A DNA stretch of 64,000 nucleotides from Nitrospira sp. (GTDB lineage Bacteria > Nitrospirota > Nitrospiria > Nitrospirales > Nitrospiraceae): contig CP054184.1 of NCBI GenBank assembly GCA_015709715.1, forward strand, positions 1,721,001 through 1,785,000, written 5' to 3'. Positions 1 to 15,055 of this stretch are shown piece after piece; positions within the stretch are counted from its first letter, which is position 1, and every line of letters starts with the position of its first letter. A program made the position numbers and the translations under genes. The notes below the pieces were generated by a model. It saw only the letters and a list, made by a program, of their open reading frames with translations, was not told the DNA's origin and did not search any database.

Positions 1-820
1 GAATGTCGCCGTCCATCTGGCCATAGGTCATCACCAGCGACAAGTCTGAATGCTCGTTGAAGGTATATTTGAACTTGCCTAGAAATCGCTGATTCCTCGT
101 GACGGATTGGTCGCGATAACCGCCGTAATCCAAGAACGAATAGTTCGCCATCCAGCTGAACGTGTCGTTCGCCCCGGCGGCCTTCAGACGGTACTTCGAG
201 AAGTCATAGGACCTGAAGACGAGCCGGGGCTCCACATAGCGGTTGTCCTTGCTCCCCTCCTCCAACACATAGTTGATGACGCCTGCCGAGGCGTTGCCGT
301 ACAGGGTCGAGTTAGGTCCGCGCAGCACTTCCACGCGGGCGACGGCGTCCAGATCGATCGGCTCCAACCTGGTCTGCCCGTCGACTTCGGTGAGGGGAAT
401 GCCGTCGATCAGGATGCGCACGCTTCGCACCCCGAATGTGGAGCGGACGCCGCTGCCGCGGATCGAGATGCGCACATCATCAGGCCCGAACCGCCGCTCC
501 GTTTGCACGCCCGGCACGATCCGCAAGGTTTCATCCACCCCGACGGCGGGCCGCCCCTGCAGAATTTGTTTTTGATCGATGACCGACACCGCGCCGGGAA
601 CTTGCGTCAGTTGTTTCGGCGCGCGCGTGGCCGTCACGACCACGGGGTCCATATAGACCAGCGGCGCATCGCGGTCGGCGCTCCGGCGAATTTCCTTATC
701 GTATTCCTCCTGCAAATTCTGACGGGCCGAGCCGGTCGAATCGTCGGCCCACGCGATCCCGACCACCCACGCGAACAGCAGAGCAACCCCGCTGCAGACT
801 CCGATTGAGCGCCTCCGCAT
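1..820 (-). CDS. TonB-dependent receptor, N-terminal part (runs off the left edge)
   Basis: Translating the minus strand from the ATG at 820 gives 273 residues with no stop before the window edge. Residues 1-25 form a signal peptide (basic start, hydrophobic core, cleavage after AWA). A TonB-box-like stretch DPVVVTATR lies near residue 60. A plug domain follows with the family signatures RISIRGSGVRSTFG, ILIDGIPLT and VEVLRGPNSTLYGNASAGVINY, and then the start of the beta-barrel. The product is an outer-membrane active transporter driven by TonB. Its substrate cannot be told from this part. It lies 109 bp downstream of the S9-peptidase-like gene on the same strand and may share its transcript. 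The plug resembles that of the receptor at 7037-9364 (shared RGSGV motif). Confidence 0.9.
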   Translation of the reverse strand, partial: MRRRSIGVCSGVALLFAWVVGIAWADDSTGSARQNLQEEYDKEIRRSADRDAPLVYMDPVVVTATRAPKQLTQVPGAVSVIDQKQILQGRPAVGVDETLRIVPGVQTERRFGPDDVRISIRGSGVRSTFGVRSVRILIDGIPLTEVDGQTRLEPIDLDAVARVEVLRGPNSTLYGNASAGVINYVLEEGSKDNRYVEPRLVFRSYDFSKYRLKAAGANDTFSWMANYSFLDYGGYRDQSVTRNQRFLGKFKYTFNEHSDLSLVMTYGQMDGDI

Positions 821-929
821 CCCTCTCCTCGACTCGAAACGCCGGTTGATGGAAACGGCGCGGAGCGTAGCAAAGCCCGGCGCGGCGCTCTACCGATGGT
901 CGCTCACCGCTGCTACAGATGTGACAGAA

Positions 930-2897
930 TCAATTGAGCTGGGAGGATAGAAAGGATTCGAGTTCGGAGAAGACCTGCAGGCGGTCTTCTTCCCGACTCA
1001 GGTCGTGGTCGGCGAACGGCAGTTCGACGTACCGAGAGGTGGTGACGTGGGCAGCCTTGAGGGATTCGGCCAGCTCGCGACTGTGCTCGACAGGTACGGC
1101 ACGATCCATCGCTCCATGGATCAGCAAAAGGGGTCGGCGCAAGGCCTCGGGATGGGTGATGGGCGAGAGGTCATGCAGGCGATCCCGATCGTGCCACCAA
1201 GATCCGATCCGCGCTTCCACCATCGGTTTCTGGTTCAGGTACCAGCGGCTGTCCGCTGAGAGCTTCCGCAAGTCCGTGATGCCGCCCAGGCTGACCGCGC
1301 AACGGTAGAGATCCGGCGTCTTCACCAGTCCCATCAACGCCGCATAGCCGCCGTAGTCGGAGCCGAGCAGGCAGATCCTATCGGTATCGGCCAGGCCGGC
1401 GTGAATCGCCCACTGGGCCGCATCGCTCAAATCATCCTGCAGTTCCAAGTTCCAGCGCTGGAATCCGGCCCGGAGAAACTGCTCCCCATACCCCTCCGCC
1501 CCACGAAAGCTGACCTGCAACACGGCCCATCCCCGGCTCGCCAGCCATTGGGTCCAATAGTTGAAGGCATCTCGCTCGCGCGAGGCCGAACCTCCATGGG
1601 GGAACAGAATCAGCGGAAGGTGATCGGGCTCCCGGTGCAACGGGATCGTCAGGAGGCCGTGTAATTCTTTCCCGTCACGCGCCGTGAAGGTGACCGGCCG
1701 TGACGCCGGCAGGTCGACCCCTTCCAGGTCCGGATAGGCCTTGCCGAGCAACAGCATCCGTCCGTCCTGTTCGTCATAGATAAAATATTGCGGGGGATGC
1801 GACAGGCCCGCCGACTTCACGATGTGCAGCCGACCGTCGTCGCTGCTGCTATGGATGACGTTGGCCCGGCCGAGAATCGCGCGATCGATCCGCGCCTGCA
1901 GCCGCTGCGCGTCAAAGTCCCAGAACAGGACGCGCAGATCCTCGGCGCTGTACCGCACCCCGATGACCTTGCGACGGCCCGGCGCATAGACGAGTTCGCC
2001 CGCCAAATCGTACTTCGGATCCGACGCCACGAGAATGCGGTCCACCGAGGGGTCGCCGGCAATGTTCACCTTGAAGATCGCCGCCCGTCCTCGGTGCCGA
2101 TCGCGCACGTACAACCAGGTCGGGTCGGCGTCGAACGCGAGGGGTACCAACCCGGTTTCCTGCGCGGCGTCGTATTCGACGAACGTCCGCCAGGTCTTGC
2201 TCTCGGGTGGTTTCACGATCACCCGCACGGTCGTTTCAAATTGACCGACGCCCGCGCGCACCTCCCCCTCCCGATCCGCAATCCACTGCAACACATTGCG
2301 GGGTCCCGGCTTCAGCCCGGGATTCGTCTCTACCAACCGACGTTCGCCGCTGTACACATCCAGCGCATACACATCCGGCGAGTTCGGACGTTCGATGTCG
2401 AGGGCGATCAAGACATGCTTCGCATCACCGGGAATGGTGCCCACGAGGCGATCCTGAAACTGGGGGAGATGTTTCTTGCCGAAAATCGAGGTGAAGGAGG
2501 TCTGCCGGAGGAGATTGCCGTTCTGCTCTGTGCCGTCTCGATTGATCGCCAGAAGCCTGGTCTCCACCCACTCGATCCTGTCACGGCTGTCGGCGAAGGA
2601 CACGGTCACGAGCACCCGTTCGTCATTGATCCAGCGGAAGGAGGTGATGAGAGAGTCCCGATTGTCGGTCGAGACGAGTCGATGGACATCCTGTCCGGTG
2701 ACGGTTTGCGTGCCCAGGTAGGTCTTGCCGTCATGGTTGCGGAGCACCGCCAGATGACGACCCGACGGGGAGATCTGGATGGATTCGATGCGCGGGAGCG
2801 AGGCAAAGGCCGCCGTAGGCGGGAGGCCGCTCGGCTGGTCCGCTTGCGCGGTACCCAACCCTACGACAAGGAACAACAGCACGACGAGTCCATACAT
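930..2897 (-). CDS. S9 (prolyl oligopeptidase) family protein with Asp in place of the catalytic Ser
   Basis: The protein has 655 residues. I start it at the ATG at 2897, because MYGLVVLLFLVVGLGTAQA is a good signal peptide and the upstream in-frame extension looks non-coding. An N-terminal beta-propeller-like region leads into a C-terminal alpha/beta hydrolase domain (about residue 400 to the end), the architecture of acylaminoacyl peptidase and DPP-IV-like enzymes. The nucleophile elbow reads LLGSDYGGYAALMG, where the family normally has GxSYGGYA, so the nucleophile position is Asp514. The other triad members appear intact: Asp598 in HGAMDRAVP and His631 in FADHDLS. Human DPP6 is inactive because of the same Ser-to-Asp change. 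The protein is periplasmic or secreted. It may bind peptides without cleaving them, or use Asp in different chemistry. It sits just upstream of a TonB-dependent receptor. Confidence 0.85.
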   Translation of the reverse strand: MYGLVVLLFLVVGLGTAQADQPSGLPPTAAFASLPRIESIQISPSGRHLAVLRNHDGKTYLGTQTVTGQDVHRLVSTDNRDSLITSFRWINDERVLVTVSFADSRDRIEWVETRLLAINRDGTEQNGNLLRQTSFTSIFGKKHLPQFQDRLVGTIPGDAKHVLIALDIERPNSPDVYALDVYSGERRLVETNPGLKPGPRNVLQWIADREGEVRAGVGQFETTVRVIVKPPESKTWRTFVEYDAAQETGLVPLAFDADPTWLYVRDRHRGRAAIFKVNIAGDPSVDRILVASDPKYDLAGELVYAPGRRKVIGVRYSAEDLRVLFWDFDAQRLQARIDRAILGRANVIHSSSDDGRLHIVKSAGLSHPPQYFIYDEQDGRMLLLGKAYPDLEGVDLPASRPVTFTARDGKELHGLLTIPLHREPDHLPLILFPHGGSASRERDAFNYWTQWLASRGWAVLQVSFRGAEGYGEQFLRAGFQRWNLELQDDLSDAAQWAIHAGLADTDRICLLGSDYGGYAALMGLVKTPDLYRCAVSLGGITDLRKLSADSRWYLNQKPMVEARIGSWWHDRDRLHDLSPITHPEALRRPLLLIHGAMDRAVPVEHSRELAESLKAAHVTTSRYVELPFADHDLSREEDRLQVFSELESFLSSQLN

Positions 2898-3013
2898 GGC
2901 CGGCACGGTGTCTATCCCTGATACCACCAGGACATGCCCATCCGGGTACGCCAATACCAGCCCAGTTATCACATGTTCGTACGGCGGGCGTCCACCCCCT
3001 TGCTTGGCCCGAA

Positions 3014-3067
3014 GGGGCACATGATGCCCCTCCGGGCACAGCAGGCTCCGGCACGATGTCGTGCCGG
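3014..3067 (-). terminator. Tandem hairpins downstream of the TonB-dependent receptor gene
   Basis: Directly after the receptor stop codon at 3075 there are two inverted repeats. CCGGCACGA at 3048-3056 pairs perfectly with TCGTGCCGG at 3059-3067. GGGGCA at 3014-3019 pairs with TGCCCC at 3025-3030. Neither is followed by a clear T-run on the minus strand. They may terminate transcription weakly or stabilise the 3' end. They separate the receptor operon from the S9-peptidase-like gene. Confidence 0.45.
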
Positions 3068-3074
3068 CTCTCGA

Positions 3075-5333
3075 TTAGAACTTATACTCCACGCCCGCAA
3101 ACCCGCTGATCCCCAGAGCCGGATTGGCATAACGGTTGAGCGAATCGTTCACCACGACCGCACCGGCATAGGTCTTGTCGGTGAGGTTGCGCCCCTCGGC
3201 GAAGAGGATCCAGTGGTCGTTGATGTTATAACCGGACCGCAGGTTGACGACGAAATAGGACGGGTTCTTCACCGTGTTCTGGTAGTCGACGTAGAAACCC
3301 GACAGCGACCATTCAAAATTCGGCGCGATCCACCAGCCGGCCGGATGGTCGTAACGCAGTTCCAGGCTCATGCTGTGTTCCGGCGCCCCGGCGACCGTAT
3401 TGCCGTCCTTCGCGATCAGGACGTTCGGGCCCACCGCGCCGCCCGCGCGCACGTCGTCGGTGAATTTGAAGCGCGACCAGGTATAGGCCACACGGGTTTG
3501 CAGGCTGTCTTCCCGCCCTGCGCCGCCCTGCGCGAAGAGGCCCTTCTTCAGGGCCATGGCGCCGCCGGCCTCGACACCGGTATGCCGCGTACCATTCGCG
3601 TTTTGGAACGTGCTCTGGTTGTTGATGACGGAGGCCAAGATCTCCTTCTGCATTTCCAGGTTATAGACCGTCAGGTCCCAGCTATAGCGCCGATCGGCTG
3701 AGGTGCCCCGGTGTCCCAACTCCACCTGCCAGGCGCGCTGCGCATCAAGGTTGAGAAATCCCGTATTCGGCGTGCCGTTCGCATTGACCGAGGAGAGCAG
3801 CTCGAGGTTGAGCGGCGCCTCGTAGGCCCGGCTGGCGTTGAAATAGAGTTGCGAGGTCGGTGTCGTGCGGTAGACGAACCCGATCTTGGGACTGATCGCA
3901 TCGAAATGTTGCAGCGGTCGATTCGTGCCGGTCGGTGAGGACGGCGTATTGGGGTTGAACGGACTCCCGGCCGGCCCGAAGTTGTCGACCGTCGCCTGGC
4001 GGCCGGTGTAATCCCACCGCCCGCCGATCACGATCGTGAAGTCTTTGGTGGCATCGAAGGCATCTTCCGCATACATGCCGAAGTACGTCGTCTTGGCCGT
4101 GTAGTTCTGCGTCATCGCGCCGATGTTGCCGTTGATGTTCACGAATCGCTGCTGCCGTTGATTCCCATATCGCGGTTGGAAACCCATGACGAACGAGTTG
4201 TTCTTGCCGAACAGCGGATTCGTGTTCACGTAGCGGAATTCTCCGCCGACGTTGTTGTTTTCCTGCCGGATGGTCTGGAAGATCGGATGGTCCACGTACT
4301 GATTCGAGAAGTAGGGAATGATTTCGAAGTATTGATTGGGCGCGAACTCGTTGTGATAGGCGATGCCGATCCGCTGGAGGTTGTAGTAACGCCCGTAATT
4401 ACAGGTCTGATTGTTCAGGTTACAGGCGAAGAAGGGCGGGGTGCCCGCCGGGCTCTGTCCGCCTGCCTGCTGCCGGTTGAAAAACAGCTGCTGGGTGGTG
4501 AGGGAGCCCGGAATCCGCTCCGCCACGTTCGCCTGCAGAAAGTAGGCGCGGATTTCCTGATGGTTACCGAGTTGGATGCCGATGTTCGCGTTCACCCGCT
4601 CGCGCGCCTGCTGACTGTTGTCCTGAAAGCCGTCCTGCCGGTTGCCGGACACGCTGATGTAGTAATCCATGGTCGCGCTCATGTTGCCGACCTTGAAAGG
4701 TTGGGTCACCTTGCCGCTCGACACCTGGCCGCTCACCATGCCGAAGCTGCCGGCCAACATGCGCATCTGCAATGTCGAGGCGTTGTACCCGGTGCGAGGC
4801 ACAAGGTTGATGGCGCCGCCGATGCTGTTCGCGCCGTAACGCAGAGCGTTGGCGCCCTTGTAGATTTCGATCCGCTCATAGGCCAGCAGATCGATGGACT
4901 CGAAATCCGAAAACCCATCCGCATCGCCGAAGAAGATGCCGTTGATCAGGATGTTGATGCCGCGATGGTGAAAGTTGTTGCGCAGCGACGTGCCTCGGAT
5001 TTGGAACTGGCCTTCGTCGGCCCCGAAGCGCGATTGGAACCGAACGCCCGGCGCGAATTGCAACACATCCTGCAGGTTGACCGCCCGTGACTCCGTGATC
5101 TGCTTTTCCTCGATCAGGATATTGCTGCCGGGACGGCGGGCGAATTCCCGCTTCACGTCCTCGACGTTCTCGATCCGTTTTCCGCTCACCTCCACCGGTT
5201 CGACCGCGATGACCGGCACGTCCTGCTCCAACGGCTTCTCGGCCGCCCACGACGCACCAGGCAGCGCTCCCACCAACAACAGGGCTGCCAGGCAGCCGAC
5301 TCCCGCCGCGCCTCGATAATGTCCCCGCCTCAT
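3075..5333 (-). CDS. TonB-dependent receptor (siderophore/metal-type outer-membrane transporter)
   Basis: The protein has 752 residues. I chose the ATG at 5333 because it follows an AGGAAGGAG ribosome site and begins a signal peptide ending ASWAA; the longer upstream frame is arginine-rich and looks non-coding. Next come a TonB-box region (VIAVEPVEVSGKR) and a plug domain with FQIRGTSLRNNFHHRG, ILINGIFFGDADG and IEIYKGANALRYGANSIGGAINLV. The long barrel ends in an aromatic outer-membrane signature, GFAGVEYKF. It should move a large or scarce ligand across the outer membrane using TonB energy. It is the last gene after the HTH protein and lipoprotein amidohydrolase (71 bp gap), so ligand import and hydrolysis may be linked. 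Ligand unknown. Confidence 0.9.
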   Translation of the reverse strand: MRRGHYRGAAGVGCLAALLLVGALPGASWAAEKPLEQDVPVIAVEPVEVSGKRIENVEDVKREFARRPGSNILIEEKQITESRAVNLQDVLQFAPGVRFQSRFGADEGQFQIRGTSLRNNFHHRGINILINGIFFGDADGFSDFESIDLLAYERIEIYKGANALRYGANSIGGAINLVPRTGYNASTLQMRMLAGSFGMVSGQVSSGKVTQPFKVGNMSATMDYYISVSGNRQDGFQDNSQQARERVNANIGIQLGNHQEIRAYFLQANVAERIPGSLTTQQLFFNRQQAGGQSPAGTPPFFACNLNNQTCNYGRYYNLQRIGIAYHNEFAPNQYFEIIPYFSNQYVDHPIFQTIRQENNNVGGEFRYVNTNPLFGKNNSFVMGFQPRYGNQRQQRFVNINGNIGAMTQNYTAKTTYFGMYAEDAFDATKDFTIVIGGRWDYTGRQATVDNFGPAGSPFNPNTPSSPTGTNRPLQHFDAISPKIGFVYRTTPTSQLYFNASRAYEAPLNLELLSSVNANGTPNTGFLNLDAQRAWQVELGHRGTSADRRYSWDLTVYNLEMQKEILASVINNQSTFQNANGTRHTGVEAGGAMALKKGLFAQGGAGREDSLQTRVAYTWSRFKFTDDVRAGGAVGPNVLIAKDGNTVAGAPEHSMSLELRYDHPAGWWIAPNFEWSLSGFYVDYQNTVKNPSYFVVNLRSGYNINDHWILFAEGRNLTDKTYAGAVVVNDSLNRYANPALGISGFAGVEYKF

Positions 5334-5404
5334 TTCCGCACTCCTTCCTCTGTCCAGACCGTATAAATGAATGACTGCCGCGATGCCGGTTGAGGACATC
5401 GCGC

Positions 5405-6778
5405 CTACTGCGCCCGATGACCGTCCACGACGACCCCTTGCTTGAACCTGATCCGAATGTTCTGCACCTGGGAAAAATCTTCGACCGGATCCCCCCCTAA
5501 CCCCAGGAAGCTCGCTTCGTAGCCTTCTTCGAATCGCCCGATCGCCCGGCCGGGAAAGATGGCCGCCGGTGTCGCCTCGCACCAGAGTTTCACCAACGTA
5601 AGGTTGTCGAACAGATCGAGCGAATGAAGGTGGAGCGCCTCCGCCAACGGCGTGTCGGCATGGTCGCTGCCGATCGCCAGGGACACGCCCGCCTGGTGGA
5701 GCAACCGAAGGTTGTCCTTGAGCACCTGCGTGACAAACTCCTCCAGAACCGGTCGTCCATGCCCCCCCTGCGCCGCCTGGTGACCATAGGCATGGTGCGC
5801 CGCGGCTCCCGGCATGGCACGGCCGGCAACGGTCGTGGTGACCACGCGTACCTTCCGTTCCGCCGCCGCACGCGCATCCGCCTCTGTCAACCGAACGCGG
5901 TCCACATCGGCCGCCTGCTCGACCAACCAGCCCGGTACATGCGCGACTTCATCCACGCCCGCCCGAATCGCGTGACGAAAGTCGGCCGCAGTTTCCACAT
6001 GGGCCGTCACCTGTAGCCCCATCGCATGGGCCTTGGCCACGATGGCGGGGATCAACCTCGGATCGAGGCCGGTACGCCCCGTGCCCGGTGTGCGAGCGTG
6101 CGCCTCCCCATCCGAATGGACGAGGTAGACCTTCAGAAAATCCGGCCGCCCGCTCGTCACCGATGCCCACTTCTCCTCCACGTCGTGTTCGCTCTCGATC
6201 ACGACGTAGGCTCGATTCTCGAACCACCCGCGCGGGAGCGGACCCACAGCCGGCTCATAACGGCTCGTGCGCAACACATCTTCGTACAGAAGGATCGGGT
6301 GACCGCCGCGTCCGGTGAGGCCCGCGTGGGCAAACACCACGTCCGGGCTCGCCATCCCCTTCAGCACCTCCCGGCTGACCAGCGCATACTCCCGCACGTT
6401 GTTCGGAATCTTCACGTAGAACACTCCGTCATGCAGGTATCGGTCGGCTACCGGCGCGAGATTCCAGCTTCCCTCGATGTTATGGTTGTGGGCTTCGCCG
6501 AACGGCGGCACGATGAACAACCGTGACAGGTCGATGACCTCCAGTCGGCCCTGCGGCGGATTGCGCGTGAGGCGACCCGCGACCGAGTACCAGGTGGCGG
6601 GCTCAAACCCCGTGCCGTTAAACCATCGACCGTTGACCAACGCATACTGCCTGGCCGCAGGCTGTGTCGCAGCCTGGGCCGCAGCAGGCGGCGCCACCCC
6701 GGAAGGAGTCGCGCAGCCGGCCAAGAGGACGAGGAGGCCGGCAAAGACGAGCGGCCATCGCCTACACACACCCTGCAT
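5405..6778 (-). CDS. Amidohydrolase-superfamily lipoprotein
   Basis: The protein has 457 residues. The start at 6778 gives MQGVCRRWPLVFAGLLVLLAGC, a signal peptide with a lipobox (LLAGC), so the mature protein should be lipid-anchored. The metal-ligand set of amidohydrolases is visible in order: HNH in FGEAHNHNIEG, Lys in PDFLKVYL (usually carboxylated), His in VTAHVET, His in EVAHVPG and Asp in GSDHADTP. All needed ligands are present, so it should be an active metal-dependent hydrolase of imidazolonepropionase/dipeptidase type. Its substrate is unknown. It starts 2 bp after the stop of the small HTH gene and is followed by a TonB-dependent receptor, which suggests a periplasmic step on an imported compound. 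Confidence 0.85.
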   Translation of the reverse strand: MQGVCRRWPLVFAGLLVLLAGCATPSGVAPPAAAQAATQPAARQYALVNGRWFNGTGFEPATWYSVAGRLTRNPPQGRLEVIDLSRLFIVPPFGEAHNHNIEGSWNLAPVADRYLHDGVFYVKIPNNVREYALVSREVLKGMASPDVVFAHAGLTGRGGHPILLYEDVLRTSRYEPAVGPLPRGWFENRAYVVIESEHDVEEKWASVTSGRPDFLKVYLVHSDGEAHARTPGTGRTGLDPRLIPAIVAKAHAMGLQVTAHVETAADFRHAIRAGVDEVAHVPGWLVEQAADVDRVRLTEADARAAAERKVRVVTTTVAGRAMPGAAAHHAYGHQAAQGGHGRPVLEEFVTQVLKDNLRLLHQAGVSLAIGSDHADTPLAEALHLHSLDLFDNLTLVKLWCEATPAAIFPGRAIGRFEEGYEASFLGLGGDPVEDFSQVQNIRIRFKQGVVVDGHRAQ

Positions 6779-6780
6779 GT

Positions 6781-6975
6781 TCACACCGTCAGTTTGAGTT
6801 CTTGTGTCTTGTTGTTCTGCACCAAGCGGTCGAGCGAGGCACGAAACACCCGCAGGCTCCCACGCCCGATCTTCGTGCCTTCCAGCCGACCCTCCTCGAC
6901 CCAGCGATAGATCGTCCATCGGCTGACCGCCAAGGCATCCGCCGCTTCTCCGACCCGCAAGAGTTGTTTCGTCAT
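6781..6975 (-). CDS. Small excisionase-type helix-turn-helix protein
   Basis: The protein has 64 residues. The start at 6975 is supported by a strong AAGGAGGT ribosome site just upstream. The sequence LLRVGEAADALAVSRWTIYRWVEEGRLEGTKIGRGSLRVF is the classic MerR-like/excisionase (HTH_17) fold: an N-terminal HTH that chooses a site and a wing with RGSLRV. It should bind DNA. It has no ligand-binding domain. No phage or integrase genes are nearby. Its 2-bp spacing to the amidohydrolase gene suggests it regulates this operon, though that is inference. Confidence 0.8.
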   Translation of the reverse strand: MTKQLLRVGEAADALAVSRWTIYRWVEEGRLEGTKIGRGSLRVFRASLDRLVQNNKTQELKLTV

Positions 6976-7036: not shown

Positions 7037-9364
7037 CTAAAAGAGTCCCAACGTCACGCCCGCATACACCGCCCGTCCGTAGCCCGCGAAGAACAGGGTT
7101 TTGTTCGCATCCGCGGTGCTGTCCGCCACCACGTTGCCGGACGCCGCGTACTTCTTGTCGGCGATGTTGTCCACCTCCGCGAAGAACTTCGCGAACCGCA
7201 CCCATTTGTTGTTCGGAAACTCAAAATTCTTGTGGACGTTCAGGTTGACGATCCAATAGGCGGGAATGCCTACGGTGTTGTTGTTGTTCAGGAAATAGCT
7301 GTTCATGTAGTTGGCTTCGACCCAGCCGCCCCAGCCGGTTCCTCGATGGTCGTACTCTTCCTTGAAATTGAGGACGTCGGTCGGCACGTTCGGCACAAAT
7401 TTGCCGTCCCGCACGAAGGCGGTCGGCACGCCGCCCACAAGAAACCTGTCGCTGAAATTGATATAGCGGGCGTCGATGTGGGTGTAGGCGCCCGACAGCC
7501 GCAGGCCGTCCAGAGGCCGCCAGTCGTAGAACAACTCGATGCCGCGGTATTGGGAAGAATCAGCATTGATCGACGCGGTGCCGCCCGTGGTCGAGACGAC
7601 CTGAGTGATGATTTCATCCTTCACGAAGGTCACAAACCCCACCAATTGAACCAGGAAGGTCTTGTGCAGCCGTGACTCCGTGCTCAACTCCACATTCAAA
7701 TTCTTCTGCGGTTTTAAATCGAAGTTCGCGCCGGCCAACCCGGTGAAGGGGTTGGTCAACAGATTGCCGAAACCCGGGATCGCGTAGCCGGTCGACGCCC
7801 TCGCCCAGTGGCGATACCCTTCCGCCGGCTTCCACGTGATCGACATTTCCGGCGCCCAGTTGCTGAAGCTCCGGTCCGCGTTGGCGCGACCGCTCACGGC
7901 GCCGCCCGTATAGCTGATCGTCTGCACACTCACCTGCGACTGCTCGAAACCCAGCCCTGCGGCCAACGTCCACTTCGGGATGAATTCCAATTCTTCCCGA
8001 ATGCGTCCGCCGATATTGCGGATCGTGCCCCGGCTGTTCTGCGCCAGCGTGCCGCGAGTGCCGAAGAAGTCCTGCAGGTTGTTGAATGTCTGCCCTTCCT
8101 GCTCCATCTGGTTGACGAAGAACCCGACGTAACTGCGCAACGGCATGTCGAAGATCCGACCGTCGTGACGCAGGTCGGTGTAGTGCTTGTAGTTCGGATT
8201 GATGTTGTCCGAGATCTGCGTGAAGGTCTGATTGATGTCCTTCACGTCGTAATCGGCTTCCATCGTCAAGACGGTGTTGGCGTCGAGCTGGCGCTCGTAC
8301 ATACCGCCGATGATGTTCCGACGATCCAATCGTCGTTGCGCCAACAACACGGCATTGGTCGCGTTGCTGATGCCGCCGGCCTGCCGGTGGTCGGCGTTGA
8401 ACTGATTGATCGTCAGCCTGGTCGGCACACGCGCGTCCAACCAGTTCGTGATGGCCTTGAAGTAGAGGTTCTGTTTGTCGTCGACCTTCACACGAAAATT
8501 GAAGTTCAGCGTTTGCGTGCTGTAGTCGCTATGCCGAATGAAACCGTCTTCGATGACGTTGCTCGCGAAGAGGGACACGTCCACGTTGGTGTACTGCTTG
8601 CCGACGGCAAATCCGTATTTCTGGTAGCCGAACGATCCGCCGCTGAAGAAGGCTTCCATGCCGTTGATGTCCACCCCGCGCTTGGTGCGGAAATGCACCA
8701 TGCCGCCGAGCGCGTAATTGTCGTACAGCGAGGACGAGGCCCCGCGCATCACTTCGACACTGCGCATGAACCAAGGATCGTGGATGTCCAGGCGCGACAG
8801 ACCGTCCGACTGCGTCTGGATGAACCCGTCCTCGTACATTTTGATTTCCCGCACCGCGAAGGTCGTCTTCACGCCGGATCCGCGAATGGAGATGCTGAAG
8901 TCGCGCGGGCCGTTGGCTTGGCGCAAGACCACGCCGGGCAAGGATTCCATCGATTCCTTGAGGGTCCTGGTGGGCTGGGAATCCGTTTCCGACTGCTCGG
9001 TCGCCGAGAGCGTGATGCCCTCCGGCCGCCGCTGCACCCGGCTGCTGACGATGCTCACGTCGGCCAACTCATACTGGGGAATCGCCTCCGGCGATGATTC
9101 CTCGGCAGCCCCCGTCGTCTCCTGCACCACGGACGGTTGGACCGGCGCCGCGGTGGCTCCCGCAGCCGGCTGCTGGAGTTCTTCCAGTTCATGCAGGATC
9201 TTCTGCATCTGTTCCCTGAGTTCCTGTTCGCGCGCCCCCTTGTCCACGACCGATCCCGACGCCCCCTCCTGCGCGAGGGCCGGCGGCGCGACGGCCTGTG
9301 CGCCTAAGACCACGAGGGCGATAACCACGAATGATGTAGTGAATGAATACCGAGCACCGCACAT
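7037..9364 (-). CDS. TonB-dependent receptor with N-terminal coiled coil
   Basis: The protein has 775 residues. The ATG at 9364 follows a CAGGAGG site and starts a signal peptide ending PPALAQ. The mature N-terminus has a short charged coiled coil (EQELREQMQKILHELEELQQ) before the TonB-box/plug region. The plug shows ISIRGSGVKTTFAVREIKMYEDG and VEVMRGASSSLYDNYALGGMVHF. The barrel ends with a phenylalanine, as outer-membrane beta-barrels do (AGVTLGLF). It is the last gene of the run that includes TonB, TlpA and two BNR-repeat proteins, and is probably the uptake pore of that system. The coiled coil is unusual for a receptor and may contact periplasmic partners. Substrate unknown. Confidence 0.9.
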   Translation of the reverse strand: MCGARYSFTTSFVVIALVVLGAQAVAPPALAQEGASGSVVDKGAREQELREQMQKILHELEELQQPAAGATAAPVQPSVVQETTGAAEESSPEAIPQYELADVSIVSSRVQRRPEGITLSATEQSETDSQPTRTLKESMESLPGVVLRQANGPRDFSISIRGSGVKTTFAVREIKMYEDGFIQTQSDGLSRLDIHDPWFMRSVEVMRGASSSLYDNYALGGMVHFRTKRGVDINGMEAFFSGGSFGYQKYGFAVGKQYTNVDVSLFASNVIEDGFIRHSDYSTQTLNFNFRVKVDDKQNLYFKAITNWLDARVPTRLTINQFNADHRQAGGISNATNAVLLAQRRLDRRNIIGGMYERQLDANTVLTMEADYDVKDINQTFTQISDNINPNYKHYTDLRHDGRIFDMPLRSYVGFFVNQMEQEGQTFNNLQDFFGTRGTLAQNSRGTIRNIGGRIREELEFIPKWTLAAGLGFEQSQVSVQTISYTGGAVSGRANADRSFSNWAPEMSITWKPAEGYRHWARASTGYAIPGFGNLLTNPFTGLAGANFDLKPQKNLNVELSTESRLHKTFLVQLVGFVTFVKDEIITQVVSTTGGTASINADSSQYRGIELFYDWRPLDGLRLSGAYTHIDARYINFSDRFLVGGVPTAFVRDGKFVPNVPTDVLNFKEEYDHRGTGWGGWVEANYMNSYFLNNNNTVGIPAYWIVNLNVHKNFEFPNNKWVRFAKFFAEVDNIADKKYAASGNVVADSTADANKTLFFAGYGRAVYAGVTLGLF

Positions 9365-9472
9365 ACCAAACCTCCTGACAGCACGACACACACGGCAGTG
9401 GAGACACACCCCTCCCGCCCCTGCCCGATGGGACAAGAAGAGGGCTAGCCCGACTAGCGATAATGGATGGAC

Positions 9473-9793
9473 TTACGAGAGCGCGGGAGGCGCACGAGAG
9501 GCGGCGTGGAACAGGCCTCGGCCAGTGAAGACACTCGGGCTCTGCTCGACGAGCAAAGCGACTGCGGGAAGCGAATGGAAAACAAATGCGGAGGGTCCGG
9601 CATCCGATGGGGGGTTAACCTGACAGGCCCAGGCGCAGACATCGGAGTGGGAAATGACGCCCCCATGGTGATGACCAGGCGGACGCGACTGGTCATGCTC
9701 GAAGGCGCAGGAGATCGCAAACAGGGAGAGAACCAGATGGGTCAGAGCCAGGATCGAGGCAAGGCCGCTGAACGATTTCGCGCGACGGGTCAT
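9473..9793 (-). CDS. Small His/Cys-rich membrane or secreted protein (DUF2946-like)
   Basis: The protein has 106 residues. The start ATG at 9793 overlaps the stop of the thioredoxin gene (ATGA), so translation is probably coupled. An N-terminal hydrophobic segment (about residues 12-32) is a signal peptide or membrane anchor. It is followed by a His cluster (PPGHHHGG..SHSD) and the motif CAWAC. The same order, His cluster then CxWxC, occurs in the small protein at 14750-15055, so the two are probably paralogues. Spaced His and Cys suggest metal binding. The resemblance to DUF2946 proteins is from memory and uncertain. No function can be assigned. Confidence 0.65.
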   Translation of the reverse strand: MTRRAKSFSGLASILALTHLVLSLFAISCAFEHDQSRPPGHHHGGVISHSDVCAWACQVNPPSDAGPSAFVFHSLPAVALLVEQSPSVFTGRGLFHAASRAPPALS

Positions 9794-10332
9794 GGCACCA
9801 ACCCTTGCAACCATTCCACCGTCTGGGGCGCATCCCACTCGCGCGGCCCCACGGCGCGCCCGACCAGGAACCCCTGTCCGTCGATCAACACCGTCGTGGG
9901 CAGAGCGCGCACCAGGTAGGCACGAGATACGTCTTGCTCCTCGTCGAACAACACGGGCAATTGTACGTTCAGGCTGGCCAAGAACTGCCTGATCCCTTCT
10001 CGCTGCAGATCGGTGGTGATCGAGAGCAGCGCCACCCGTTCCGGATCCAGCTGCCTCCGCAACCGCTCGAAGGCAGGCATCTCTTCTTTACAGGGTCCGC
10101 ACCACGTGGCCCAGAAATTCACCACGAGCACCTTGCCCTTGAAGTCGGACAACTGCACCGACCGCCCATCCAGCGACTGCAGGACAAACGGCGCCGCGAC
10201 GGTTCCCGGTTGAACACGGGTGATTTTCAATGCCGTCATGGCATCCGCCGCCCACCCCGGCAGGGCGAGCGACCACAGGATCAGCGCCACCAGCGCCATG
10301 CCTGCCACGCTCTGTCGCAATCGACCGTCCAT
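9790..10332 (-). CDS. TlpA/ResA-type thiol-disulfide oxidoreductase
   Basis: The protein has 180 residues. An N-terminal signal peptide or anchor (about residues 8-29, ending GWAA) is followed by a thioredoxin fold. The fold carries the active-site motif NFWATWCGPCKEEMPAF and the cis-proline region ALPTTVLID. It should act in the periplasm, reducing specific disulfides or protecting thiols, as TlpA and ResA do. It lies 12 bp after the first BNR-repeat protein, which has a CxCC motif, and overlaps the Cys/His-rich small protein. Those neighbours are natural candidates for its substrates, which is an inference from position. Confidence 0.9.
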   Translation of the reverse strand: MDGRLRQSVAGMALVALILWSLALPGWAADAMTALKITRVQPGTVAAPFVLQSLDGRSVQLSDFKGKVLVVNFWATWCGPCKEEMPAFERLRRQLDPERVALLSITTDLQREGIRQFLASLNVQLPVLFDEEQDVSRAYLVRALPTTVLIDGQGFLVGRAVGPREWDAPQTVEWLQGLVP

Positions 10333-10344
10333 CGTCGTTTCCGC

Positions 10345-11625
10345 CTACCGGGTCGCCTCGGACGCCGCCAGCGCCGACGGCAGCCGCAAGGTCTGGGTCA
10401 CGATCTTGTGCCCCGGCATGCCGTGCTCCATCCAGGCCAAGGCAAAGAGGCCCTGACGGTTCACCGCCACTACCGGCGTCTGGCTTTTCTTGTCATTGAG
10501 TTTCTGCGGCTTGGAGAAGGTCTGCCCGCGGTCCGTGGAGACGCTCACAACGACATCGCGCTTCACCGGCGCCTGTTCCTCCCACACCACCACGATCCGC
10601 CCGTCCGAATCGACGGCGATCTGCGGATGGTCGGGAAAGGTGTTGCGGGCCACATTGAGCGGCCGCTTCCCTGAAAAGGTCTGCCCGCGATCATCGGAAT
10701 AGGCGAGGTAGACCGCAGGAATTTCCTCCGTCCCTTCGCTGTACCAGACCACATAGAGGCGGCCCTGCTTGTCCACGCCCATCGAGGCCGGGCGATGCGG
10801 ACAGGCCGGGAACACCCACCGATCGTTTCCAACGATCACCGGCGCACCGAACGTCTCGCCCTGGTCGGTGGAGCGAGCAACGACGGTTTCGCGCACATTG
10901 CCCTCGAAAATTTTCCGCCAGGCGACATAGACCGTCCCGTCGGGACCGCTGGCCAGCGCCGTACGGCAACAGACGCAGGTCCCTTCATCCACTTTCAGGT
11001 TCTTCGTAACGCTCAGGCCCTTGTCCAACGACCGAGCCACATAGGTGCCCGGCTCCTTCTTGCCTTCGCGCGCGTCGATCCACGACAGGTGCAGACGGCC
11101 CGCGGCATCGCGATGCAACGCATCGAAGGTATGTTGAATGACCCCGGGATCGTCGTTCACCAACACCGACGCCTCGAACGTCCGCCCTCCATCGGTCGAG
11201 CGGCTCAAACGCAGCTCGGTCGCCAGCGGTTGCTGCGGCGTGGCATTGGGATGAGCTAGGCCCCAGGTCACGAACACCTCGTCGCCCGCGACCGTCAACG
11301 CCGGCGCCTCTTGTCTCCAATACGGGATTTCTTCCGAGCGATTGATCCGCACCGGCGTACCCATCGGCCCGCCAGGCGCCGTGCTGCGGGCGTACAAGAC
11401 CGACCGCACGTCCTTGTCTTCTTCCATCCAGGCCAAGGAGATGATCCCGGCCTCGTCGATCTGAATGGAGGGGCCGACCAGGCTCTTCACCCTATGTTCC
11501 GTCACGAGCTTGGAACCCAGCTCGCCGGGCACGGAGGCGTCTGCGTAGACGAGCGACGCCGTCGAGAGCAGGCCCAGTAACAGCCCCGTGAGGTGACGCT
11601 TGGCCATGATGGAGGGGTGACGCAC
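10345..11625 (-). CDS. BNR/Asp-box repeat (sialidase-like fold) exported protein with CxCC motif
   Basis: The protein has 426 residues starting at a GTG (11625) preceded by GGAG; an internal ATG at 11607 is an alternative but lacks a ribosome site. A signal peptide ends near VYADA. At least four Asp-box repeats are visible (STDGGRTF, STDQGETF, SDDRGQTF, STDRGQTF), predicting a six-bladed sialidase-like propeller. The arginine triad of true sialidases was not identified. Distinctive motifs are GTCVCCRTAL and VFPACPHR, both repeated in the paralogue at 13383-14660. The clustered cysteines suggest metal or redox chemistry rather than sugar hydrolysis. It lies 12 bp after tonB and 12 bp before the TlpA-type gene. 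Confidence 0.8.
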   Translation of the reverse strand: MRHPSIMAKRHLTGLLLGLLSTASLVYADASVPGELGSKLVTEHRVKSLVGPSIQIDEAGIISLAWMEEDKDVRSVLYARSTAPGGPMGTPVRINRSEEIPYWRQEAPALTVAGDEVFVTWGLAHPNATPQQPLATELRLSRSTDGGRTFEASVLVNDDPGVIQHTFDALHRDAAGRLHLSWIDAREGKKEPGTYVARSLDKGLSVTKNLKVDEGTCVCCRTALASGPDGTVYVAWRKIFEGNVRETVVARSTDQGETFGAPVIVGNDRWVFPACPHRPASMGVDKQGRLYVVWYSEGTEEIPAVYLAYSDDRGQTFSGKRPLNVARNTFPDHPQIAVDSDGRIVVVWEEQAPVKRDVVVSVSTDRGQTFSKPQKLNDKKSQTPVVAVNRQGLFALAWMEHGMPGHKIVTQTLRLPSALAASEATR

Positions 11626-11637
11626 GGCTCGCTCCGA

Positions 11638-12849
11638 CTATCGATTCAAGCTGTAACTCACCGGCAAATGCAGCACGACCATCGGCGCGGCCAATTCGTG
11701 CTTCATGTGCAACGGACAGGCGCGGCGCACCGCTTCCATCGCCGCCTGGTCGAGCGCGTCATATCCGGAACTCTTTACCACTTCGACATCCTTCAGTTGG
11801 CCGTCCTTCTTGATGGACACCTTCAGGACGACCTTCCCTTCCCACCCGTTCAATCGCGCCGTGCTGGGATAGTGCCGCAACTCGATGATGCGGCGGTGCA
11901 GGGATTCCGCCAACCAACCATAATCGGCCTTGGTGGCCGGTCTCGGCGTGGCCATGCGGGCAACCACCTGATGTTCCTGCAACGTCGCAGGATCAGGCTG
12001 CGCCGCCACGGCAGGGGCCGGCGGTGCGGTAACCGGTTCCACAGGAGCCGGAGGAGCCGCGACCGGCTCGCTCGGGGCAGCGGCCACCGCCTCAGCCACC
12101 GGGGCCGGAGCCGGTTCGGTCGGCGTCGACGCAGGCAGGGTCGGATCGGAAGGCGGAGCGGTCCGCTCCACCGGCGCACTCGCCGTCACGACCGGTTCAG
12201 ACCTTGTTTCCACGGCAGCCGGCGCCGTCACCACCGGCTGAGCGGCATAGGTCTGCGCCGTGACAGGCGCCGATTCGACTAGGGTCTTTTCAACCGCCGC
12301 CACCGTTTCCCGCGTGACTTCCGCCGGGGCCGTCGCCTGCATCACCGGTTCGACCTGACGGGTTTCTTCACGCTCAACGTGCTTGACCGCTTCCCGTTGA
12401 ATCACTTCCTTCGGCGGCTGGACCTGCTCCTGCGGGCGCACCGCTTCCACGACCGGCTGCGGTTCCCGCTGCACCGCCTGCACCACCCGCTCCACCGGCT
12501 GCACGACCCGTTGAACCGGCTGCGGCTCGACCCTGGTTTCGACTTGCCGTTGCACTGGTTGCGGTGTCGGTTCGACCGTCTTCACCGGCTCGCGCCGCGG
12601 CTTCACGGGGGCCGGGGCAGGAGGCTGCACCTGCGCGACGGGGGCCGGCTCTTCCTGACGCACGACCTCGCGCGGCGGCTCGACCATCGCGACGTCCCAC
12701 TTAAAGGGTTCCTGCTGCACCAGGACGGTCATTTTCGGCATGAGGCTCAGCGCGACCATCGCGAGGCCGGCATGCAATAGGCAGGACACGCCCCACCCCT
12801 TCATCCTGTGCCGGGAGTCCCAGGTTTGCGCCGTGAGTCCTTGGTTCAT
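11638..12849 (-). CDS. tonB: TonB energy-transducing protein with long proline-rich linker
   Basis: The protein has 403 residues. A single N-terminal membrane helix (about residues 19-37, GWGVSCLLHAGLAMVALSL) anchors it. A linker of about 250 residues rich in Pro, Val, Glu and Gln carries degenerate repeats of the type PQPVQR/PVERVVQ (about 12400-12620). The C-terminal TonB domain (YPSTARLNGWEGKVVLKVSIKKDG) contacts receptors. The linker is longer than in E. coli TonB (239 residues in total), consistent with reaching across a wide periplasm. No exbB or exbD is in the window. Its place inside the receptor operon suggests a TonB dedicated to the receptor at 7037-9364. Confidence 0.9.
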   Translation of the reverse strand: MNQGLTAQTWDSRHRMKGWGVSCLLHAGLAMVALSLMPKMTVLVQQEPFKWDVAMVEPPREVVRQEEPAPVAQVQPPAPAPVKPRREPVKTVEPTPQPVQRQVETRVEPQPVQRVVQPVERVVQAVQREPQPVVEAVRPQEQVQPPKEVIQREAVKHVEREETRQVEPVMQATAPAEVTRETVAAVEKTLVESAPVTAQTYAAQPVVTAPAAVETRSEPVVTASAPVERTAPPSDPTLPASTPTEPAPAPVAEAVAAAPSEPVAAPPAPVEPVTAPPAPAVAAQPDPATLQEHQVVARMATPRPATKADYGWLAESLHRRIIELRHYPSTARLNGWEGKVVLKVSIKKDGQLKDVEVVKSSGYDALDQAAMEAVRRACPLHMKHELAAPMVVLHLPVSYSLNR

Positions 12850-12881: not shown

Positions 12882-13340
12882 CTACTTGAAGACCACCTTG
12901 GAGATGGAACTGACCGGCACCTCGACCTGCCCGAAATCCGAATCGCCCTTGAAGCTCCCGCTCACCGCCGGCACGAAGTCTCCGGTTTTGCCGTTGGTCA
13001 AGGTCACGCTCATGCTTGGCATGGCCTTGTCGGCGCCGGGCTTCATCTCGATCTGCTTGATCTGATCGAACTTGATATTGACCGTGGCCGTGCCCCGCTT
13101 GGCCGGCAGGTGCCGGAGTTCATGGGGAACAAATGAGGTTTCGCTCATTTTCTCTTCCCAATAGAAGATGCCGTTTTTGAGTTCGGTTTCGACGCCCTGC
13201 TGGTCCGTCACCACGATCTGGAACGCCTTCTCGCCCTTGTTGTCGGCCAGCGACAGACCCGGCATCCAGACCGACAAGACCAACGCCGCCAGTCCACAGA
13301 TTCCGCCCCACTTCCCACTCCGAGACCACTGTGTCTTCAT
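12882..13340 (-). CDS. Secreted protein of unknown function
   Basis: The protein has 152 residues. The ATG at 13340 follows GGAGGAGTC. Residues 1-33 form a signal peptide (cleavage near SLADN). The mature part is predicted to be beta-rich, with alternating hydrophobic residues and no cysteine. Phrases such as DQIKQIEMKP and SSISKVVFK suggest a small beta-barrel or sandwich. I do not recognise the family. It lies between the second BNR-repeat gene (42 bp) and tonB (32 bp), so it is probably co-transcribed and acts in the periplasm with them. Confidence 0.75.
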   Translation of the reverse strand: MKTQWSRSGKWGGICGLAALVLSVWMPGLSLADNKGEKAFQIVVTDQQGVETELKNGIFYWEEKMSETSFVPHELRHLPAKRGTATVNIKFDQIKQIEMKPGADKAMPSMSVTLTNGKTGDFVPAVSGSFKGDSDFGQVEVPVSSISKVVFK

Positions 13341-13382: not shown

Positions 13383-14660
13383 CTAGGGCGCCGCCGCGCC
13401 CCGCCATCGGCCCTGTTGCACTACGATTCTGTTATGGGGAAACGCATGTTCGGTCCAGCCGATTGCGACCTTCCCGTCCTCATGGAGGGCCACCACCGGA
13501 TGTTCGGCCTTGGAGCCGCCGGTCAAGGTCTGCATCGGCGCGAAGGTCTCGCCCCGATCCGTCGAGACCCGCATCACCACTCGTTTACGCACCCCGGTGG
13601 CCTCTTCCCACACGGCCACCACCAGCCCGTCCCGCTGAACGGCCAGGTGCAGATTATCCGGCAGAGACGTTGCGGCCGTGTGCAACACAACCGGCTGGGA
13701 AAAGGTCGCACCCTGATCATCCGAATGGGAGACGAACAGGCGCGGCTGCTCATCCTTGCCTTCCGTGTACCATCCGACATAGAGACGCCCCTTGCCGTCG
13801 AAGGCGATCGATGGCCCTCGATGGGGACAGGCGTCGAACACCCAGCCATCCTGACTCACGAGGATGGGCGGCGAAAAGGTGCGCCCCTGGTCGGTCGACC
13901 GAGCGACCACGATATCCCGCACATTGCCTTCGAACGTCTTGCGCCAGGCGACCCATAACGATCCATCCGGCGCCTGGGCCAACATGGGGCGACAGCAAGG
14001 GCAGGCCATTCCGTCCACCACTAGATTCTTGTCCATCGTCGCACCGCCATCCCGGGAGCAGGCGAACAGGAGACCGGCACCGCTGCGGTCCTTGTTGCGA
14101 CCGTCGAGCCAGGAGAGATATAGGTCGCCGTTCCGGCCGACCAACACATCCTCGAAGGTGTGCGAGATGGCCAGCCCGTCGTCGTTGACCTTCACCGGCG
14201 ACTGAAACGTCGTCCCGCCGTCGGGCGACTTCGTCAATGTGAGGTCCGACGCGAAGAGGGCGCCGGGAGCCCGGTTGGCGACAGACCACGTGATATAGAG
14301 CGCTCGGTCGGACCCGATGGCAAAGCCCGGTGATTGGTGGATGGCCTCCGGCCCGCCGCCGACGGAACGGCTCTGGGCCGAACCGGCTGTCGATTCTCCG
14401 CTTGCGATGACCGCGGTCTTGACCTCTCCCGTCTGCCCCTTCTTTTCGACCCAGGTGGCATGGAGAACCCCGGCGGCGTCATACCGCAAGGCGGGCGGAG
14501 AAACCGTAGTGGTCGTTTCCACTATCTTGGTGGGCGGCGTGAGGACCAGGGCGGAGGGAGCCTCGTCGCCGGCCCGGACGGGAGCAACCACAAGGCCCAG
14601 CAGACAGAGACTACCGGTGACCTGCCGCATCGCCTGTCGATGAAATGACGTAAAGAACAT
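13383..14660 (-). CDS. BNR/Asp-box repeat exported protein, paralogue with CPCC motif
   Basis: The protein has 425 residues. I start it at the ATG at 14660 (AGGA upstream), which gives a signal peptide ending APVRAG; the longer frame upstream is low-complexity and arginine-rich. Asp-box repeats include KSPDGGTTF, SRDGGATM, STDQGRTF, SDDQGATF and STDRGETF. The motifs GMACPCCRPML and VFDACPHRG match GTCVCCRTAL and VFPACPHR in the protein at 10345-11625, and the stretch between them is nearly identical in layout (WRKTFEGNVRDIVVARSTDQG). The two are duplicated members of one family. Sialidase activity is doubtful. A thiol or metal role is possible, given the nearby TlpA-type gene. Confidence 0.8.
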   Translation of the reverse strand: MFFTSFHRQAMRQVTGSLCLLGLVVAPVRAGDEAPSALVLTPPTKIVETTTTVSPPALRYDAAGVLHATWVEKKGQTGEVKTAVIASGESTAGSAQSRSVGGGPEAIHQSPGFAIGSDRALYITWSVANRAPGALFASDLTLTKSPDGGTTFQSPVKVNDDGLAISHTFEDVLVGRNGDLYLSWLDGRNKDRSGAGLLFACSRDGGATMDKNLVVDGMACPCCRPMLAQAPDGSLWVAWRKTFEGNVRDIVVARSTDQGRTFSPPILVSQDGWVFDACPHRGPSIAFDGKGRLYVGWYTEGKDEQPRLFVSHSDDQGATFSQPVVLHTAATSLPDNLHLAVQRDGLVVAVWEEATGVRKRVVMRVSTDRGETFAPMQTLTGGSKAEHPVVALHEDGKVAIGWTEHAFPHNRIVVQQGRWRGAAAP

Positions 14661-14749
14661 GCGCCCTATCCTGCCGATGAAACGCCGAATGAAAGCGGAC
14701 CACCCTACGCCGTCACGGGCGAGGGGGACCGACTCGGGAACGTTCAGGG

Positions 14750-15055
14750 TTAGGCGGAAACGGGCGGCGCGCGAGGCAGACTGGGAAGGGGCCGCGGCGT
14801 GAGGAAGATGCCGTCGGAGGATACGGGCACGTGGCCGACGACTTCGAATACCTGGGTCAGGTGGACGGGCGTGACGACGTGGACGCCGGCTGTCGCGCAC
14901 ATCCATGAGCAAATGCTCGAAGCATGCATGCCGGCCCCGTGGTGGGCGGCATGTTGCAACTCATGCGCGACCGCCCCGCCGGTCGTCGTGGCCAACAAGA
15001 GGACCACGGTCCCGACGAGCACCCACACGATCGTCTTGAACGATTCGTATCGCAT
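14750..15055 (-). CDS. Small His/Cys-rich membrane or secreted protein, paralogue
   Basis: The protein has 101 residues from the ATG at 15055 (a TTG at 15091 is possible; no strong ribosome site precedes either). One hydrophobic segment (about residues 6-26) is followed by HELQHAAHHGAGMHASSICSW, a His-rich stretch leading to the motif CSWMC. The matching CAWAC and His cluster at 9473-9793 mark the two as a pair. Each accompanies a BNR-repeat protein, so a small His/Cys protein plus BNR protein seems to be a repeated unit. Metal binding is suggested by composition only. Confidence 0.6.
   Translation of the reverse strand: MRYESFKTIVWVLVGTVVLLLATTTGGAVAHELQHAAHHGAGMHASSICSWMCATAGVHVVTPVHLTQVFEVVGHVPVSSDGIFLTPRPLPSLPRAPPVSA

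Follow-up and report, generated by a model that had tools for sequence, protein, structure and literature searches.

A nearly genus-wide branch of S9-family proteins in Nitrospira that lacks the catalytic serine and is probably maintained as a pseudoenzyme beside TonB-dependent receptors

Introduction

Bacterial proteins annotated as 'S9 family peptidase' are usually taken to be enzymes. What, then, keeps an exported S9 homologue in the genome when its catalytic serine is gone and its gene sits beside a TonB-dependent receptor? This question is raised by one gene in a 64,000-nucleotide stretch of a Nitrospira sp. genome (contig CP054184.1; the whole stretch is called the window below), which belongs to a branch of this nitrifier genus without the nucleophile Ser and mostly without the triad His. 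What an S9 fold does when it does not cut is also the question that DPP6 and DPP10 have raised in animals.

An intact S9 protein with Asp at the nucleophile position

The gene (Table 1) is an intact frame of 655 codons and a stop. Its product can be placed in the S9 family by a Pfam Peptidase_S9 domain (PF00326) at residues 445–654, with an E value of 4.7e-36 and 124.7 bits against a curated cut-off of 22.6. In the AlphaFold2 model, made from an alignment of 37 homologues (mean pLDDT 80.8, pTM 0.84; segments 468–483 and 549–569 below pLDDT 50), a beta-propeller (residues ~25–390) precedes an alpha/beta-hydrolase domain (~396–655), and this order, which is that of the S9 fold, is also seen in PDB alignments over residues 25–655. 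By sequence and by fold, the protein is matched best by bacterial and archaeal acylaminoacyl peptidases and their S9 relatives (5l8s, 1ve6 and 8wt1), with an E value of 1.5e-30 for 5l8s and best VIA Z scores of 29.8 (2hu8) and 29.5 (1ve6). Unlike 5l8s, 1ve6 and 8wt1, which were deposited as peptidases, the window protein has no Ser at the nucleophile position. Lasso-peptide isopeptidases (SpI-IsoP, Atxe2) have an S9-like fold as well and appear at Foldseek rank 22; the window protein scored 35.5 bits with their NCBIfam model NF033523, whose cut-off is 400.

The elbow of the window protein reads GSDYGGYA, with Asp514, Asp598 and His631 at the triad places, and with Asp514 the Ser-Asp-His triad of an active S9 serine peptidase is absent. 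Reading the codons confirmed every coordinate and residue number that an earlier, sequence-only reading of this DNA had given for the elbow and these three residues. A promoter and terminator scan of positions 600–3200 was uninformative (no promoter-like and one terminator-like site, where 0.6 and 1.5 were expected).

Table 1. Positions of the S9 gene, its key codons and the genes around it in the window, together with an S9 gene remnant of another genome
Feature	Position	Strand	Evidence or comparison
Part of a gene for a third TonB-dependent receptor, on the downstream side of the S9 gene; the gene extends beyond position 1 of the window	1..820	(-)	L070:7590-9821 (-)
Predicted exported (signal-like N-terminus) S9 prolyl oligopeptidase family protein, probable pseudoenzyme, 655 aa	930..2897	(-)	Open frame, PF00326, AlphaFold2 model
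Codon 631, CAC = His, triad His	1005..1007	(-)	Genus: His 6, Gln 12, Glu 8 (n = 26)
Codon 598, GAT = Asp, triad acid	1104..1106	(-)	Asp in 26/26 genus orthologues
Codon 514, GAC = Asp, nucleophile position	1356..1358	(-)	Gly in 25/25 other readable genus orthologues
Codon 463, AGC = Ser	1509..1511	(-)	Asn in all 13 Ser-nucleophile homologues; genus: Arg 19, Asp 5, Ser 1, Asn 1
Hydrophobic signal-like N-terminus of the S9 protein	2841..2897	(-)	Judged by eye
TonB-dependent receptor TBDR1, upstream neighbour of the S9 gene	3075..5399	(-)	Pfam PF00593 and PF07715
Amidohydrolase-family protein, putative lipoprotein (motif by eye)	5405..6919	(-)	Pfam PF01979, 25.7 bits (cut-off 25)
Second TonB-dependent receptor TBDR2, PqqU/YncD-like	7037..9436	(-)	Pfam; PDB 6v81/9c4o, E about 7e-41
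Thioredoxin-like (ResA/TlpA-like) protein	9790..10332	(-)	Profile matches
BNR-repeat (sialidase-type propeller) protein	10345..11625	(-)	Pfam PF13088
TonB protein	11638..12849	(-)	Pfam PF03544, TIGR01352
S9 gene remnant that keeps just the C-terminal third and follows a TBDR2 orthologue immediately	L069, about 8340-8810 (G047:C1:3032369-3032800)

Glycine takes the place of the nucleophile across the genus

Among 29 Nitrospira genomes, the window's own included, an S9 match was found in 28, and in 27 of these the window gene has an orthologue; the two exceptions are G006, which lacks any match, and G015, whose match is a different paralogue with Ser. Since the genus homologues are 64–74% identical to the window protein across its whole length, what is seen here is not a product of chance, and the nearest named relatives are nearly all Nitrospira, including Candidatus Nitrospira defluvii (71% identical). 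All orthologues but one cover the nucleophile position (26 of 27), the contig of G025 stopping short of it.

At position 514, 25 of these 26 orthologues have Gly, the window protein has Asp, and none has Ser. The sequence-only reading had spoken of a Ser-to-Asp change and had envisaged that Asp might be conserved among close homologues, or else that these might all have Ser; the alignment bears out neither, with Asp in the window genome only (1/26), Ser in no orthologue (0/26) and Gly as the state of the genus. The triad His is lost in 20 (Gln in 12, Glu in 8) and kept in six, five of which are Gly orthologues, and the Asn at 463 is lost in 25 of the 26. What the genus orthologues retain is Asp598 (26/26), the elbow glycines, Tyr470 and the HGG at 434–436 (with one Tyr for His in 26). 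Thirteen homologues with Ser were compared (seven paralogues, L050 from another genus and five class-level outgroups), and Ser, Asp, His and Asn463 are kept in every one of them. The adjoining position 513, considered as the site of a substitute nucleophile, varies between Ser (17 of the 26) and Ala (9) and is not conserved.

Codon route and probable repeated loss of the serine

A single transition separates GAC, the codon in the window, from GGC, the commonest codon of its relatives at this position, and the Ser codons used in the family (AGC, AGT, TCC and TCG) differ from GAC by at least two changes. For this reason, a base error at the window Asp would most probably hide a Gly and not a Ser. 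Since Gly is genus-wide, the Asp appears to have arisen from Gly after Ser had been lost; the loss of Ser is, by this reckoning, the older event, and the Asp a later step in a lineage already without Ser. Asp514 is thus quite likely to be a secondary change, so far private to one genome and irrelevant to catalysis.

Outside the genus, further states are found in the family: Asn at the nucleophile with Tyr at the His position (L049, genome G039), Gly with the His kept (L051, genome G102) and an intact Ser-Asp-His triad (L050, genome G119). The S9 sequence of G033, which is of another genus by its group code, was merged with that of G016 and has Gly. In the tree, the Ser-bearing L050 and the Gly-bearing L051 are sisters (support 98/100), and the topology test rejects a tree that gathers every non-Ser row into one clade (p-AU 0.00162, for 30 rows comprising 28 non-Ser rows and two with the nucleophile uncovered). 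On these two grounds Ser would have been lost at least twice in the family, provided that the ancestral residue was Ser, to which all outgroups point. The window branch is weakly placed, grouping with the Gly orthologues at 58/97 and outside all of them at 41/79, and the deep branching order of the tree is poorly supported.

The gene of L050 lies behind a TBDR2 orthologue, and the same stretch holds thioredoxin, BNR and TonB homologues, so an S9 protein with the full triad was once part of this locus. The C-terminal remnant in G047 (Table 1) shows that the S9 gene has decayed elsewhere.

Selection and domain conservation

We have compared the selection on the Gly orthologues with that on the Ser-bearing paralogues by pairwise Nei-Gojobori dN/dS. 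The Gly orthologues gave a median of 0.139 (range 0.086–0.234; 22 full-length sequences of 25, based on those pairs whose dS was under 1, 76 out of 231), and the paralogues gave 0.172 (range 0.147–0.214; seven sequences, 11 of 21 pairs counted). Purifying selection on the pseudoenzyme is therefore as strong as on the Ser paralogue, and constraint did not collapse. The window's own pairs are near saturation (dS 1.3–1.5), with dN/dS about 0.14. In same-species comparisons, the pseudoenzyme evolves neither uniformly faster nor uniformly slower than the paralogue, and inner stops were seen in none of the genus orthologues.

In the Ser paralogues, mean column entropy is lower in the hydrolase domain than in the propeller (0.41 vs 0.58), with 58% and 46% invariant columns, respectively. 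In the Gly rows the two domains stand at 0.59 and 0.60, with 37% and 39% invariant columns. The absence of extra hydrolase conservation in the Gly rows is what would be expected if catalysis was lost and a function retained, and we use it as supporting evidence only, the sets being unequal in size (22 Gly rows, 7 paralogues) and in depth.

A minor observation concerns the S9 genes of L012 and L030, which are 99.7% identical in the propeller and 88.8% in the hydrolase domain; this looks like recombination near the domain border, and the L011/L021 pair displays a milder form of the same contrast.

Association with TonB-dependent receptors

The S9 gene starts 177 nt downstream of the receptor gene TBDR1, on the same strand (the TBDR1 start codon was picked by eye, and its open frame reaches 5582). 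TBDR1 orthologues are 79–95% identical. A receptor orthologue lies immediately upstream of the S9 homologue, on the same strand, in each of the 26 loci that extend far enough (21 with TBDR1, 5 with TBDR2; six further loci without room upstream are left out of this count). Among the 175 genomes of the family, TBDR1 is found in 42, TBDR2 in 83 and S9-type matches, paralogues counted, in 34. An obligatory receptor subunit is ruled out by the many family genomes that have the receptors without the S9 gene; since the receptors are so common without it, the S9 protein would be an accessory and no required part of the receptor.

The Ser-bearing paralogue

The window genome also encodes a complete Ser paralogue with the full triad (G000:C1:643730-645610; L062:7689-9944 (-)), which is 49% identical to the window S9 protein over 633 aligned positions. 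It has a lipoprotein-like N-terminus and lies in a cluster with a PepSY_TM protein, an ECF sigma factor, FecR, its own receptor, ExbD and TonB. The paralogue is present in 7 of the 29 genus genomes, compared with 27 for the pseudoenzyme, and 21 genomes have the pseudoenzyme alone. The copy of G010 is broken by a stop and a frameshift. That of G015 (L044) has the elbow GGSYRGYA, with Arg for the conserved elbow Gly.

A probable pseudoenzyme kept for another job and its alternatives

The window S9 protein very likely has no serine-peptidase activity. It is also likely, judging from the sequence comparisons, that its gene encodes a selectively maintained exported pseudoenzyme, dead as a serine peptidase and kept for a non-catalytic job, because purifying selection on it is strong and its place behind a TonB-dependent receptor is constant. 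In the other readable Nitrospira orthologues Gly stands where Ser would be, and His631 and Asn463 have drifted. The propeller-covered cavity may still bind a peptide or peptide-like ligand in the periplasm, or the surface of the protein may bind a partner there, and the pseudoenzyme could in this way be an auxiliary to uptake at the TonB locus, for instance holding a ligand brought in by the receptor. We put forward such a binding or accessory role tentatively, as a plausible proposal that falls a little short of probable. Given the retained HGG, Tyr470, elbow glycines and Asp598, and the Asp-His-Asp set of the window protein, catalysis by some unforeseen route may also take place.

Four other explanations have to be weighed, two of which concern the Asp. 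Haloalkane dehalogenases and epoxide hydrolases use an Asp-His-acid triad, and the sequence-only reading had considered an Asp nucleophile of the dehalogenase kind. On that account, Asp514, His631 and Asp598 would work together, the nucleophile having been regained by a single Gly-to-Asp change in a long-dead pseudopeptidase; a pseudoenzyme would have turned back into an enzyme in nature, under a peptidase propeller. All three residues are indeed there, the elbow has the form G-x-D-x-G, and the window protein keeps the His that 20 of 26 orthologues have lost. Pfam places the protein in S9 first. However, the support goes no further than one sequence with these three residues: the combination occurs in the window protein only (1/26), five Gly orthologues keep the His too, so that its retention needs no Asp, and DPP6, which has the same fold with Asp, is described as inactive (PMC4350108). 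We regard a working Asp514 as very unlikely. It is rather unlikely, though less far-fetched, that the Asp is a sequencing error or a strain-private mutation, Gly being the usual residue of the species and the pseudoenzyme unchanged. The occurrence in one genome and the single G-to-A step from GGC to GAC agree with this, but the genome is one contig of 4,156,062 bases, 99.97% complete, and the frame is intact. Since an error or private mutation would touch only the Asp, it is compatible with a pseudoenzyme kept for a non-catalytic job.

The two remaining explanations concern the function itself. The pseudoenzyme might be the inactive partner in a heteromer that modulates the Ser paralogue of its own genome, which is complete, 49% identical and keeps its triad; this is very improbable, given that the paralogue is so much rarer in the genus than the pseudoenzyme, is broken in one of the seven genomes that have it and lies in a separate cluster with a receptor and TonB of its own. 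Alternatively, the gene may be on its way out, catalysis being gone and the rest decaying slowly under residual constraint. The many family genomes without the gene, and the remnant left behind a receptor in G047, are what slow decay would leave, but dN/dS stays at 0.09–0.23 in all 76 close pairs, the genus orthologues have no inner stops and 25 of the 26 readable ones share Gly at position 514, which makes it improbable.

For a pseudoenzyme kept for a non-catalytic job, the closest functional parallel would be human DPP10 (DPPY) and DPP6 (DPPX) of S9B, a parallel rather than membership. Both combine a propeller with an alpha/beta-hydrolase domain and have Gly (DPP10, elbow GKGYGG) or Asp (DPP6) in place of the catalytic Ser, the same two states as are seen in Nitrospira; both are described as inactive (PMC4350108, PMC4873792), and in the experiments recounted in PMC4350108 putting Ser back restored activity in neither. 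They are eukaryotic membrane proteins that bind Kv4 channels, whereas the Nitrospira side has no ion channel. DPP10 is only distantly related to the window protein (PDB 4wjl, E 1.6e-9), and the latter falls outside S9B, its best sequence matches being acylaminoacyl peptidases and other S9 enzymes; the absence of DPP10 among the 50 VIA matches listed excludes nothing. The idea in the sequence-only reading of a non-catalytic exported S9-fold protein beside a TonB-dependent receptor, comparable to DPP6, gains support from the PF00326 domain, the genus orthologues and the 26/26 loci.

Fly DPP10 is an active peptidase and a channel subunit at once (PMC4873792). Although it is an animal protein and, unlike the window protein, catalytically active, it sets an example of binding alongside catalysis, a role that could persist once catalysis is gone, and such coexistence would fit the repeated later loss of Ser.

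The Nitrospira branch is, as far as these alignments indicate, a new and well-delimited group within a kind already known, the S9 'non-peptidase homologues' (in the usage of MEROPS, PMC5753285), nearly genus-wide, selectively kept and tied to receptors. A literature search, which most subscription journals lay outside, found no earlier report of such a Nitrospira S9 pseudoenzyme. The family, in which Gly, Asn or Asp can stand in for Ser and one relative with Ser intact has comparable gene neighbours, offers a tractable system for following what an S9 fold does after cutting stops.

Other genes of the locus

For both TBDR1 and TBDR2, the nearest solved structures are PqqU/YncD, and both receptors score below the PqqU family cut-off. 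The window genome has no PF13360 (PQQ_2) match and no PqqE match above cut-off, so import of PQQ is not claimed as the job of this locus in spite of the PqqU/YncD-like receptors.

Beyond the TonB gene, positions 12882–13340 of the window encode a 152-aa protein without a Pfam or NCBIfam match; in six loci, a homologue with 57–66% identity is found next to a TonB homologue in the neighbourhood of the Ser paralogue. The BNR-propeller proteins at 10345–11625 and 13383–14912 are related to each other and flank the TonB gene, and in L014 and L073 the S9 gene is followed by another BNR-propeller copy.
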